DNA of 64,000 bases. Source: Phormidium tenue FACHB-886. GTDB taxonomy: Bacteria; Cyanobacteriota; Cyanobacteriia; Elainellales; Elainellaceae. Below are positions 53,546-59,578 of the stretch, one piece after another. The notes under the pieces were generated by a model. That model saw only the letters and a program-made list of their open reading frames with translations, searched no databases and had not been told where the DNA came from. Position numbers and translations under genes: made by a program. The stretch covers positions 1 through 64,000 of the forward strand of contig NZ_JACXWX010000015.1 of NCBI RefSeq assembly GCF_014764505.1, in the 5' to 3' direction. Position 1 is the stretch's first letter. Each line of letters begins with the position of its first letter.

Positions 53546-56161
53546 GTGACTCAAGAGTTTCACATTTCTGTAACCCCAGTGGGGAGTGATGATTACTTGG
53601 TGCGAACAGAACAGGTTGCGCCCGGTGTGCCCTTGGCAGAGGAGCAGCTAACCTGGCAGGTTGAAGAATGGCTGACGCAGGCGCGGCAGTTAATGAGCGA
53701 TCCACTGCTGGGAGTGCTGCAGGGAGGCGGCTTGCAGGGCGATCGTATTCTAGATATCCCTGGCGCAGGCAACCCAGCGCCAGGGGCGGATGCTTCCTCT
53801 CTCAGCCTGATCAATTTGGGTCAGCAGCTCTTCAGTGCTCTGTTTCAGGGGACTTTGCGCGATAGCTGGGTGACGGCGCAAGGCATTGCTCAGAATCGGC
53901 GAGAAGCACTGCGGCTGCGATTGGGGCTGAAAGGAACACGCTTGCCGCGTCTGCCGTGGGAAGTGATGTACGGCAACGATGCACCGATCGAGCGAGTCCA
54001 GCAAACGCTGAGCGCTGCTGCACGTCCGTTGGCAGCCGGAACCCATGTCATTTTTTCTCGCTACCAGCCTACCCAACGCGTGATGGGCGATCGGCTGCCG
54101 CCGCCCATTAACAGCGATCAACCGCTGCGAATTTTGATGGTGATTGCGGCTCCCGATGACCAAGAGCGTTTGCAGCTGCATCAAGAAGCTGTCCGTCTTC
54201 AGCAGGAACTTTACAACACCAGCCCACAGAGTAACCTACCAGCCTACCCCCCCCAGCGCGAGGCAATGCTGCCCGAAATTCAGCTAACGATCCTGGATCA
54301 ACCAGGGCGGGAGCAGTTGACACAGGCGCTAGAGCAAGGACATTACCAAGTGCTGCACTACTCTGGGCACAGCGATTTGAGCAGCGCAGGCGGCAGCCTC
54401 TATTTGGTAAATCATCGGACTGGGTTAACAGAAATTCTCAGCGGCGACGACTTAGCAGGGCTGTTGGTTAACAACGGGGTGCGGCTGGCGGTGTTTAACT
54501 CCTGTCGGGGAGCATCTGCTGCTACGGCTGACCCGGTCAATGAGCGTGAGCGCAATCTGGCTGAAGCATTGGTTAGCCGTGGCATACCGGCAGTACTGGC
54601 AATGGCAGAGCAGATTCCTGATAGTGTGGCGCTGACGCTGACCTGGCTGTTTTACCGCAACTTAAAGCAGGGCTATCCGATCGATCTCAGCCTTAGTCGG
54701 GCACGGCAAGGCTTGATTTCGGCTTACGGTTCGCATCAGCTCTATTGGGCGCTGCCAATCTTGTATTTGCATCCAGAGTTTGATGGCTATCTGACAGCGG
54801 TCGATCGCAGCTTTGAAAATCCTGCCGATCGGCTGGTGTTTATGCCGCAGTCTTATAGCAGCTTCCCGGCGCTGACGCTCGATGAGAGAACGCCGCTGCC
54901 AGCCAGCTTCGTTACCGATGATTCCCATCTGCCAACAGATGAGGAGCTAGTTGCCAATGCCGTGCTAGCGGAGGACGAGTTAGTTGGGGAGAATGTGGAC
55001 GACTGGATCGAGGAGCTAGAAAACTTCGACAATGCAGAAGCACAAGAAGAAGAGACTCTCGATTGGATTCGGCAGCTAACTTCCCAGGTTTCCGAAGAAT
55101 CGATCACAGACGCAGGGCAGCTCAGCCTAGACGAAGACGATTTGCAAAACTTACAGCCGCCCGCTGAAACCGCTCAGCCCATGCTGGCAGACAGCGATCG
55201 TCCTACCGCTAGCGTAGGAGGTGTAACTTCTGCGATCACGCTGTTTAACGAATCACACGACCTATCTACCGCTGAGCAAACCGCGTCGGCTGGGATGGTG
55301 CAGGCGTTACCCGTAGATAGCCGAAATGGCAATGTTTCTTCCAGGCGCCGAGGGATACTGTTGCCTGCAGTGGGAGCAGTAGCTACATTCGCTGTCCTTT
55401 TCTTTGCCTTTACGCTGAGCCAGTCTCTTCATCCAATGTCAAAGAACCCTGATAGCCCACAAACTGCTACTCCTGGGGCTACCACACCCACTGAATCCTT
55501 TAGCGAAAAGCTGGCTGCAAACTCTACAGCAGAAGTAAGGGCGATCGCCCTCAGCAGCTTTAGCAAAAAGCAGGTTGCGCAAGGGCAACAAGCCGTAGCG
55601 GTGCTGCTCGATCGCAATGCCTTAGCAGAAGCCAAGGCAGCGCTGGCAGCCGTCCCTAAGGAATACCAGAATGATGCAGAAACGCAGTTCTTGCAGGGGC
55701 GGCTAGCTTGGCAGGGCGTCAAACAACGCGACCCGCAGTACAAACTAGCAGACGTACAACGCGCCTGGGAAAATGCAGCGCAAGCTGAGCCAAACACTGT
55801 GCCATATCATCAAGCGCTGGGGTTTGCTTACTATGCTGGCGGAGATGCCTCTAGGGCAAGACAAACCTGGATGCAATCGATCGCCCTGCTAAACAGCGGG
55901 CAGGCAACCGTCGCCAATCGAGCAACAATGGATCAGCAGATGCTGACTGCCTATGCAGGAGTGGCGCTGGCGCTGCAGCAAGTTTCGGCAAATCAGCCAA
56001 TCGACGAGCAGCAAAACATCGCCAGCAAAACCACCAAAATTTATCAGATGGTAGTAGCAAGCGATCCAGACAGCTTCCAACCCCAGGCGTTAAGCCAAAA
56101 CTGGCTCTGGAATGAAGCAGCCATTCAAGGCTGGAAAAAACTAGCGCAGGGACAGCTTTAG
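53546..56161 (+). CDS. CHAT-domain protein with TM helix and TPR-like C terminus
   Basis: An 871-residue protein. Residues 1-420 contain a CHAT (caspase-like) domain with the catalytic His in VLHYSGHSDLSSAGG near residue 275 and Cys in LAVFNSCRGASAATA near residue 320, followed by RGIPAVLAMAEQIPDSVA. Residues 440-600 are acidic and low-complexity. One membrane helix (GILLPAVGAVATFAVLFFAF) lies near residue 618. The end (about 680-871) is a helical repeat region resembling TPRs. The start is GTG with GGGGAG upstream. CHAT proteins are proteases in some defence or cell-death pathways; in cyanobacteria many are uncharacterised. The catalytic pair looks intact. Confidence 0.88.
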   Translation: MTQEFHISVTPVGSDDYLVRTEQVAPGVPLAEEQLTWQVEEWLTQARQLMSDPLLGVLQGGGLQGDRILDIPGAGNPAPGADASSLSLINLGQQLFSALFQGTLRDSWVTAQGIAQNRREALRLRLGLKGTRLPRLPWEVMYGNDAPIERVQQTLSAAARPLAAGTHVIFSRYQPTQRVMGDRLPPPINSDQPLRILMVIAAPDDQERLQLHQEAVRLQQELYNTSPQSNLPAYPPQREAMLPEIQLTILDQPGREQLTQALEQGHYQVLHYSGHSDLSSAGGSLYLVNHRTGLTEILSGDDLAGLLVNNGVRLAVFNSCRGASAATADPVNERERNLAEALVSRGIPAVLAMAEQIPDSVALTLTWLFYRNLKQGYPIDLSLSRARQGLISAYGSHQLYWALPILYLHPEFDGYLTAVDRSFENPADRLVFMPQSYSSFPALTLDERTPLPASFVTDDSHLPTDEELVANAVLAEDELVGENVDDWIEELENFDNAEAQEEETLDWIRQLTSQVSEESITDAGQLSLDEDDLQNLQPPAETAQPMLADSDRPTASVGGVTSAITLFNESHDLSTAEQTASAGMVQALPVDSRNGNVSSRRRGILLPAVGAVATFAVLFFAFTLSQSLHPMSKNPDSPQTATPGATTPTESFSEKLAANSTAEVRAIALSSFSKKQVAQGQQAVAVLLDRNALAEAKAALAAVPKEYQNDAETQFLQGRLAWQGVKQRDPQYKLADVQRAWENAAQAEPNTVPYHQALGFAYYAGGDASRARQTWMQSIALLNSGQATVANRATMDQQMLTAYAGVALALQQVSANQPIDEQQNIASKTTKIYQMVVASDPDSFQPQALSQNWLWNEAAIQGWKKLAQGQL

Positions 56162-58609: not shown

Positions 58610-59578
58610 ATGCTGAAGAACAGCTATGTCAAAGTTTTAGTCGTCGCTTCGGGGACGCTACTCGTGACGCTGGTTCTCAATCGGCTGCAATACACGGTGG
58701 CACTAGGCTTATTGGCAGGAGTGCTGGCATGGCGGACCTGGGAGCAAAGCGAAACTAGCTATCAGCTTGCCCAAAAGATTCAGATCGAGACAGAACAGAA
58801 TGTCGAGATCCAAACCGAAAATACACAGCTACAAACTGAGCTGGAGCAAATGCAGGTGCAATCACAGGAAATCGCCGAGCGTTTGAACCTGGAACTTACT
58901 GCAAAACTTAAAAGCGAGGCAAAAGTTGCTGAGTTAGCTGAACAGCTCAAGCTCGTTCAGCTAACTACAAACAGCTACCAGCTCAAAACACGTCAGCTAG
59001 AGAGCCGCATTTTAGAGAACCGATCCCTCCAGCAAAACTTCCAGACCTTACAGCAAGAGCTAAAGAACCGAGACGACATTATTAATCTAATGTCTGAGGA
59101 GATAGAGCAGGAGCAAGACCAACGCAAAACATTGGAAGCATTAGCAGAAGAGTATTCTAACCAAGTGCAGATGTTAGGCGCTGAAAATGCTGAACTTAAA
59201 GACCGCTTGGGGCAAGCCAACCGCAAGCTAGAAGCAATTAGAGTCGAGCCGACTGCCGCCGAACCAGATTCAAAGCCGACCATTGGGCAATACACCCTCA
59301 AGTTTGACTACATGGGCGACTTTAATGATTTGCCCGATCGTGAGTACAAGAAAGTCTTGGGTAAAATTTTTGCGCTGCAAACCGATCCCAGACCCCATGA
59401 TTGCGACTATCTTAGAAAATTTAATCATCGCCACGGCAAAATCTATCGGGTCCGCGCTGGAGACTACCGTATCTGCTACACCATTGAAGAAACGCCCATT
59501 AAGCAAATTCGGATTCTGATGGTGGACAACCGCAACGAACGAATTTACGACGAGCGGCTGAGCCGCCGCCTCAGCTAG
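58610..59578 (+). CDS. Membrane-anchored coiled-coil protein with a C-terminal RelE-like domain
   Basis: A 322-residue protein. Residues 7-42 are hydrophobic, one or two short membrane helices (KVLVVASGTLLVTLVL and VALGLLAGVLAW). Residues 50-210 are a Gln/Glu/Leu-rich coiled coil. The last 95 residues look like a RelE/ParE toxin fold. YTLKFDYMGDFNDLPDREYK near residue 228 is the first strand and helix. TDPRPHDCDYLRKF near residue 260 matches the usual L-x-x-D-P-R-P turn. KIYRVRAGDYRICYTIEE near residue 280 and ILMVDNRNERIY near residue 303 are the central strands. GAGG precedes the ATG. No antitoxin-like gene is adjacent. Whether it cleaves mRNA or has lost activity is unknown. Confidence 0.82.
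   Translation: MLKNSYVKVLVVASGTLLVTLVLNRLQYTVALGLLAGVLAWRTWEQSETSYQLAQKIQIETEQNVEIQTENTQLQTELEQMQVQSQEIAERLNLELTAKLKSEAKVAELAEQLKLVQLTTNSYQLKTRQLESRILENRSLQQNFQTLQQELKNRDDIINLMSEEIEQEQDQRKTLEALAEEYSNQVQMLGAENAELKDRLGQANRKLEAIRVEPTAAEPDSKPTIGQYTLKFDYMGDFNDLPDREYKKVLGKIFALQTDPRPHDCDYLRKFNHRHGKIYRVRAGDYRICYTIEETPIKQIRILMVDNRNERIYDERLSRRLS

Follow-up and report, generated by a model that had tools for sequence, protein, structure and literature searches.

A RelE-fold domain behind a hydrophobic N-terminus and a long coiled coil, encoded without an adjoining antitoxin gene in Phormidium tenue and other cyanobacteria

Toxins of the BECR fold joined to membrane-spanning sequence have been described as ToxM, with its antitoxin ToxR (Gerdes 2025, PMC11980606). 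According to this survey, ToxM begins with the BECR domain, followed by a transmembrane part and a periplasmic C-terminal domain, and the antitoxin gene toxR is co-transcribed (PMC11980606). The same survey left out many multidomain proteins because no antitoxin was identified or because the members were too few (PMC11980606); the antitoxin-less multidomain class thus looks little examined. ToxM is the closest described membrane BECR toxin that we found, and the only membrane BECR toxins that we found described come with an antitoxin. E. coli RelE, the archaeal aRelE (1wmi) and M. tuberculosis RelE1 and RelE2 are monodomain toxins of two-gene modules. A different arrangement is known from the soluble protein Cami1, in which a C-terminal RelE domain lies behind an N-terminal control part, a ligand-binding CARF domain. 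To our knowledge, Cami1 has no separate antitoxin.

Here we describe a gene of Phormidium tenue FACHB-886 located in a 64,000-nucleotide stretch of contig NZ_JACXWX010000015.1 (assembly GCF_014764505.1), referred to as the window. It is a single uninterrupted frame at the coordinates given by an initial annotation made from the sequence (Table 1). The three-part layout proposed there, a hydrophobic N-terminus, a coiled coil and a RelE domain, holds and extends to the orthologues. The protein resembles ToxM, as described in the survey, in that a BECR-fold toxin domain, predicted to be cytosolic, is joined to membrane-spanning sequence, which is here a prediction from hydropathy. It differs from it by the reverse order of membrane part, coil and C-terminal RelE domain, by the lack of a periplasmic C-terminal domain and by the lack of a detectable antitoxin. 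With Cami1 it shares the C-terminal position of the RelE domain behind an N-terminal part, which is here composed of hydrophobic segments and a coiled coil instead of CARF. No CARF family was among the Pfam matches at E values up to 1, and residues 4-207 were modelled as one helix. Fold and catalytic residues are shared with E. coli RelE, aRelE, RelE1 and RelE2, which unlike the fusion are monodomain.

Table 1. Features of the RelE fusion gene in the window
Feature	Position	Strand	Basis or remark
Whole gene, 322 aa and stop	58610..59578	+	MLKN start also used by three orthologues
First hydrophobic (predicted membrane) segment, residues 7-23	58628..58678	+	Kyte-Doolittle peak 9-23 (15-residue windows); above 1.6 with 19-residue windows too
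Second, weaker hydrophobic segment, residues 28-42	58691..58735	+	Peak 26-40 (15-residue windows); below 1.6 with 19-residue windows
Coiled coil, residues 48-207	58751..59230	+	AlphaFold2 helix, 3.5-residue periodicity, one-heptad indel relative to orthologues
Flexible linker, residues 208-226	59231..59287	+	pLDDT below 50 at 207-225; 14% identity to orthologues over 213-226
RelE-fold (BECR) domain, residues 227-322	59288..59575	+	Sequence and profile searches, AlphaFold2, structure comparison
R280 and R282, RelE K52 and K54 positions	59447..59455	+	K54 assignment less certain: two-residue insert in RelE in the profile alignment
R287, RelE R61 equivalent	59468..59470	+	Present in 6/6 fusions
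R308, RelE R81 equivalent	59531..59533	+	Present in 6/6 fusions
Y313, RelE Y87 equivalent	59546..59548	+	6/6 by motif; low model confidence at this position

The gene is separated by a 394-bp gap from a divergent M28 peptidase gene upstream and by about 35 bp from the end of a convergent UPF0182 gene downstream. A sigma-70 scan found no promoter, and a terminator scan gave no excess over shuffled sequences. Its neighbours vary from genome to genome: ABC transporter genes and a glycosyltransferase gene in the Drouetiella group, a peroxiredoxin gene in genome G424, and a PTPS gene plus one ORF without Pfam match in genome G027. Since the contexts of the fusion genes differ (ten neighbours scanned), a conserved gene partner was rejected. 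Elsewhere in the window, at 53546-56161 (+), an 871-aa protein contains a CHAT domain (residues 91-406, E 1.2e-25). Behind this domain, inspection by eye suggests a hydrophobic segment and then a C-terminus resembling repeats; the protein has no evident link to the RelE fusion.

Matched singly to family models, the C-terminal domain stays below the thresholds. The last 102 residues matched the Pfam family ParE_toxin at E 0.0022 (19 bits, cut-off 23) and Gp49 at E 0.0028, also sub-threshold, and the NCBIfam match to RelE_StbE was likewise below cut-off (E 0.06). Against the PDB, the single sequence matched 1wmi at E 0.0035. A profile of the six fusion proteins described below placed 1wmi first (6.7e-5) and M. 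tuberculosis RelE2 fourth (0.012), the two rows between them being designed TIM barrels (0.007) that we judged to be chance matches. With a ten-sequence profile consisting of five fusions and five standalone relatives, the E values were 4.6e-9 for 1wmi, 2.6e-8 for ribosome-bound E. coli RelE (4v7k) and 3.4e-8 for RelE2. AlphaFold2 gave residues 229-321 the RelE fold, with block pLDDT values of 82-95 at 231-310 and about 69 in the last dozen residues, and Foldseek matched the modelled domain to 1wmi at 6.3e-5. Comparison with VIA yielded Z scores of 11.3 for RelE1 (9g12; rmsd 2.2, 81 residues aligned), 10.9 for 1wmi and 10.7 for RelE on the 70S ribosome (4v7j; rmsd 2.2, 89 residues aligned), and the CARF-RelE protein Cami1 reached 9.1 (8phj) and 8.1 (8phb). 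RelE structures scored 9.5-11.3, closely followed by YoeB (at most 11.0) and ParE (at most about 10); as gaps of less than 1 count as ties, structure alone cannot part RelE from YoeB or ParE. Taken together, sequence relationship and predicted fold clearly mark the domain as a member of the RelE/BECR superfamily. The RelE/ParE pattern that the initial annotation had read from the C-terminus is thereby borne out by profile searches against solved RelEs, in which a RelE match was indeed found, and by AlphaFold2, Foldseek and VIA.

In E. coli RelE, the substitutions R61A, R81A and Y87A reduce mRNA cleavage in vitro, and K52A and K54A were reported to be without significant decrease (PMC2807027). 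M. tuberculosis RelE1, which cuts 16S rRNA and not translated mRNA, has a serine at the K52 position and is toxic nevertheless; it requires R60, the equivalent of K54, for toxicity (PMC12620021). A comparison of catalytic residues with RelE had been proposed at the outset, and equivalents of R61, R81 and Y87 were found in all six fusions. They were assigned from the 1wmi alignment (up to R308), the profile alignment to E. coli RelE and the motif spacing, and for the tyrosine of two distant members a one-residue shift relative to the MAFFT alignment is needed. The K52 and K54 positions are occupied by R/R in the four close members and by S/D in the two distant ones, which could be weaker or inactive because RelE1 needs its R60. 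Among 33 sister standalone sequences, arginine stands at the K52 position in 33 and aspartate or asparagine, not arginine, at the K54 position in 33. The R81-Y87 motif is present in 31 and the R61 equivalent in 32, the latter count being partly by construction since the motif pattern, which one sequence failed to fit, demands R or K at this position. Judged by this residue comparison, the window domain is no less complete than its sisters, which are presumably active.

The membrane segments were predicted from hydropathy alone. Of the membrane helices claimed by the initial annotation, the hydrophobic N-terminus and its first segment stand, and the second segment is the weaker one (Table 1). 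In the AlphaFold2 model of the window protein (17 sequences, mean pLDDT 86.5, pTM 0.34), a single helix extends over residues 4-207 with block pLDDT values of 90-98 at residues 41-200 and low confidence at the N-terminus, and no break is drawn between the two hydrophobic segments. The residues that follow, with pLDDT below 50, were read as a disordered linker. The same layout was obtained for the orthologue from Drouetiella (helix 3-200, disordered 200-218, domain 222-314); in view of their low pTM (0.32-0.34), the two models do not predict how the parts are placed relative to one another.

The coil of about 160 residues would measure about 24 nm if fully helical. Among six periods tested, a hydrophobic period of 3.5 residues was strongest in all six fusion proteins, with shuffle p values of 0.044 for the window protein and 0.001 to 0.03 for the other five, the limits of the coil having been chosen by hand. 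The sole length difference between the window protein and its orthologues amounts to seven residues, i.e. one heptad, and lies inside the coil. Helix, heptad periodicity and one-heptad indel thus bear out the 160-residue coiled coil noted initially. The coil is acidic (net charge -2 to -11) and the RelE domain basic (+4 to +5). Matches of the fusions to coiled-coil families in Pfam, and PADLOC matches located on the coil, were taken as chance.

Conservation differs between the parts of the protein. Across genera, the RelE domain has changed least: identity of the window protein to its orthologues is 78-79% in this domain, 65-70% in the hydrophobic part, 47% in the coil and 14% in the linker. 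In comparisons inside the Drouetiella group, conservation is as high in the hydrophobic part (93-98%) as in the RelE domain (94-96%) and lower in the coil (70-87%). As dS is saturated in most comparisons, only the pair L109-L110 has dS below saturation for the coil as well as the RelE domain; its dN/dS ratios are 0.026 for the hydrophobic part, 0.101 for the coil and 0.017 for the RelE domain. These values indicate that the RelE domain is under strong purifying selection.

The family is small. Full-length proteins were found in 4 of 36 genomes of the window's family, namely its own and three of one other genus (58% identity); a fourth member of this genus, whose genome has a completeness of 68%, yielded a short fragment match only. 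These orthologues come from Drouetiella hepatica Uher 2000/2452 (Oculatellaceae), an Oscillatoriophycideae MAG and an uncultured cyanobacterium MAG. A search of 388 genomes of the class with a five-sequence profile, in which the best 4-5 candidates per genome were scored so that the counts are lower bounds, revealed at least six genomes with a fusion: the same four plus G027 and G424, each the sole genome of its order among those searched. Altogether, the six fusion proteins represent four genera. Those of G027 and G424 comprise 409 and 418 aa with the parts in the same order and share 65.6% identity in a BLAST segment of 96 residues. Inspection by eye suggests two hydrophobic stretches in each protein, with a long loop in between, and by the hydropathy threshold there are three peaks in G424 and one alone in G027; their coils span 138 to 202 residues (21-30 nm). 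Homologues with the three-part layout, which the initial annotation had suggested collecting, therefore exist as three orthologues and two distant cyanobacterial proteins.

Queried with the single protein, a pattern scan across named genomes gave no match. Repeated with the six-fusion profile it gave six loci, three of them the orthologues; the scan is incomplete because the G027 and G424 sequences were not among the six. In 42 genomes of another order, no fusion was found at E 1e-22 in a search run without a positive control. An origin from phages or plasmids was rejected, as a phage collection contained no match, the one match among plasmids was to a standalone RelE, and viral contigs contained no relative of the full-length protein. 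Among the literature matches listed, no membrane-coil-RelE protein was described, which is weak evidence as the term RelE also matched words like 'release'.

The initial annotation had noted that no antitoxin gene lies next to the fusion gene, and this is confirmed for the window gene and extended to the other five fusion loci. Neither of the two gaps beside the window gene contains an antitoxin. The gaps flanking the six fusion genes contain 55 ORFs no shorter than 25 aa, of which the 27 of at least 40 aa were scanned and matched no antitoxin family (Pfam, E 0.1), including RHH and HTH families as in toxR; two matches below cut-off, to SVWC and LRR_14, were attributed to chance, and the upstream gap at L108 runs to the contig end. 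A genome-wide search, which covered the Phd/YefM family, gave no match at E 0.01 in the 8.9-Mb, 99.88% complete genome of the window, and the same search found matches in 8 of 14 control genomes. Nor did this genome contain a second match to the ten-sequence RelE profile at E 0.01. The other five fusion genomes have 1-3 Phd/YefM genes each, located elsewhere, so that control in trans is possible there. As a separate observation, the missing Phd/YefM match (E 0.01) sets the genome of the window apart from five other cyanobacteria searched.

The nearest relatives of the fusion domains in the tree are standalone cyanobacterial RelE proteins of about 90 aa, 33 sequences of which many are near-identical. 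In contrast to the fusions, 31 of the 33 genes have an antitoxin-sized ORF of 73-120 aa directly upstream, whose end lies anywhere from 8 nt within the domain match to 40 nt ahead of it. Six of seven such upstream proteins scanned matched Phd_YefM, four of them above cut-off. The tree was built from 80 of 90 distinct domains over 90 columns, after removal of fragments shorter than 65 residues and of any second domain from a locus already represented. In this tree, a node with support 95/89 unites the fusions and the sister standalone clade; support for all six fusions as one clade is weak (64/27), and AU tests on one or two fusion origins rejected neither alternative (p 0.41 and 0.53). By the features tested, the fusion locus is not a type II toxin-antitoxin module: it has no adjoining antitoxin and encodes a 322-aa protein with a hydrophobic N-terminus and a coil.

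We consider it about an even bet (roughly 0.5) that the protein is a membrane-anchored RelE-family member derived from a toxin-antitoxin module, free of an antitoxin and controlled in cis, and most likely still a ribosome-binding RNA cutter. The hydrophobic N-terminus would anchor it in a membrane, the coiled coil would oligomerise it and act as a stalk, and the short disordered linker would offer the RelE domain to the cytosol. This domain was probably captured from a cyanobacterial module with an upstream Phd/YefM-type antitoxin. It would most likely still bind ribosomes and be able to cut RNA, with its location, its copy number and the state of its oligomer setting limits to this activity, much like Cami1 with its own control domain; by this analogy the two proteins may resemble each other in their manner of working. 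An RNase whose action is set by anchoring and oligomerisation appears the most economical reading because the catalytic set is kept, the domain is strongly constrained, and the N-terminus and stalk are found where the relatives have an antitoxin gene. Several points weigh against it, namely the Pfam and NCBIfam scores below cut-off, the S/D pair of the distant members, the hydropathy basis of the membrane segments and, in the Drouetiella group, a hydrophobic part as conserved as the RelE domain. If correct, it would mean that a toxin domain has left a two-gene addiction module and is held in check by membrane location and oligomeric state. An unlikely refinement would have the stalk serve as a molecular ruler that holds the RelE domain about one ribosome diameter off the membrane, where it could reach the A site of docked ribosomes and cut the mRNA of those jammed during membrane-protein synthesis; a toxin domain would then have been turned into quality control of co-translational insertion.

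The main rival to an anchored, still active RNase is a RelE domain co-opted as a non-cleaving binder of the ribosome, RNA or a protein, with the stalk tethering this partner to the membrane. We regard this as possible, with the odds against it. A harmless domain needs no antitoxin, and none adjoins the fusion genes or appears as Phd/YefM in the window's own genome. Moreover, the spacing of the R81 and Y87 positions is shorter by one residue in the window group than in the standalone clade, and in the two distant members the basic residues at K52 and K54 are both gone, the K54 equivalent being important in RelE1 (PMC12620021). On the other hand, K52 and K54 are dispensable for in vitro cleavage by E. 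coli RelE (PMC2807027), and RelE1 is toxic despite its serine at the former position (PMC12620021). Since every fusion keeps the R61, R81 and Y87 equivalents and purifying selection on the domain is strong, the option of a co-opted inactive domain, raised initially, is weakened. A further option raised then, a sensor that uses the fold to bind RNA or ribosomes at the membrane, may apply. Another early suggestion, a toxin held in check by its own coil, found no support, and an active toxin that the coil would mask as a built-in antitoxin and release on a membrane signal seems improbable. Single-gene toxin-antitoxin fusions do exist (PMC11980606), and an acidic coil lies beside a basic domain; yet the coil is poorly conserved, and the linker is disordered in both models, although single-chain models of such low pTM are unable to show docking within an oligomer. 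The coil as a degenerate Phd/YefM antitoxin was rejected for want of homology (hhalign probability 0.8%).

A conventional type II toxin with its antitoxin gene at another locus would agree with the Phd/YefM genes found elsewhere in the other five genomes. It is quite improbable, as the nearly complete genome of the window has none at E 0.01 and all six proteins have a hydrophobic N-terminus and a stalk. Still less credit is due to a ParE-like domain acting on gyrase or another non-RNA target. ParE_toxin is the best Pfam family by name and ParE structures reach similar Z scores, but the top profile matches and most of the top structure matches are RelE, the Pfam family also includes mRNA-cleaving toxins (PMC11980606), and ParE toxins were described as being without the BECR RNase catalytic residues (PMC11980606), which are present here. 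The chance that two genes were fused by a sequencing error is negligible: nothing was found in favour of a split frame, which is refuted by three orthologues and two distant genomes that have this layout in one continuous frame as well, and coil and RelE domain alike show far less amino-acid than silent change.

A second multidomain RelE architecture came to light among the relatives. UvrD/Rep-type helicases with an N-terminal RelE-like domain, about 700 aa long where complete, occur in several cyanobacteria and a Roseiflexus MAG (nine loci: L111:5914-8085, L005:1486-3240, L028, L034, L049, L061, L066, L054 and L042). Pfam, run on two of these loci, showed ParE_toxin plus UvrD-helicase, and in the tree all nine fall into a single group (87/89).
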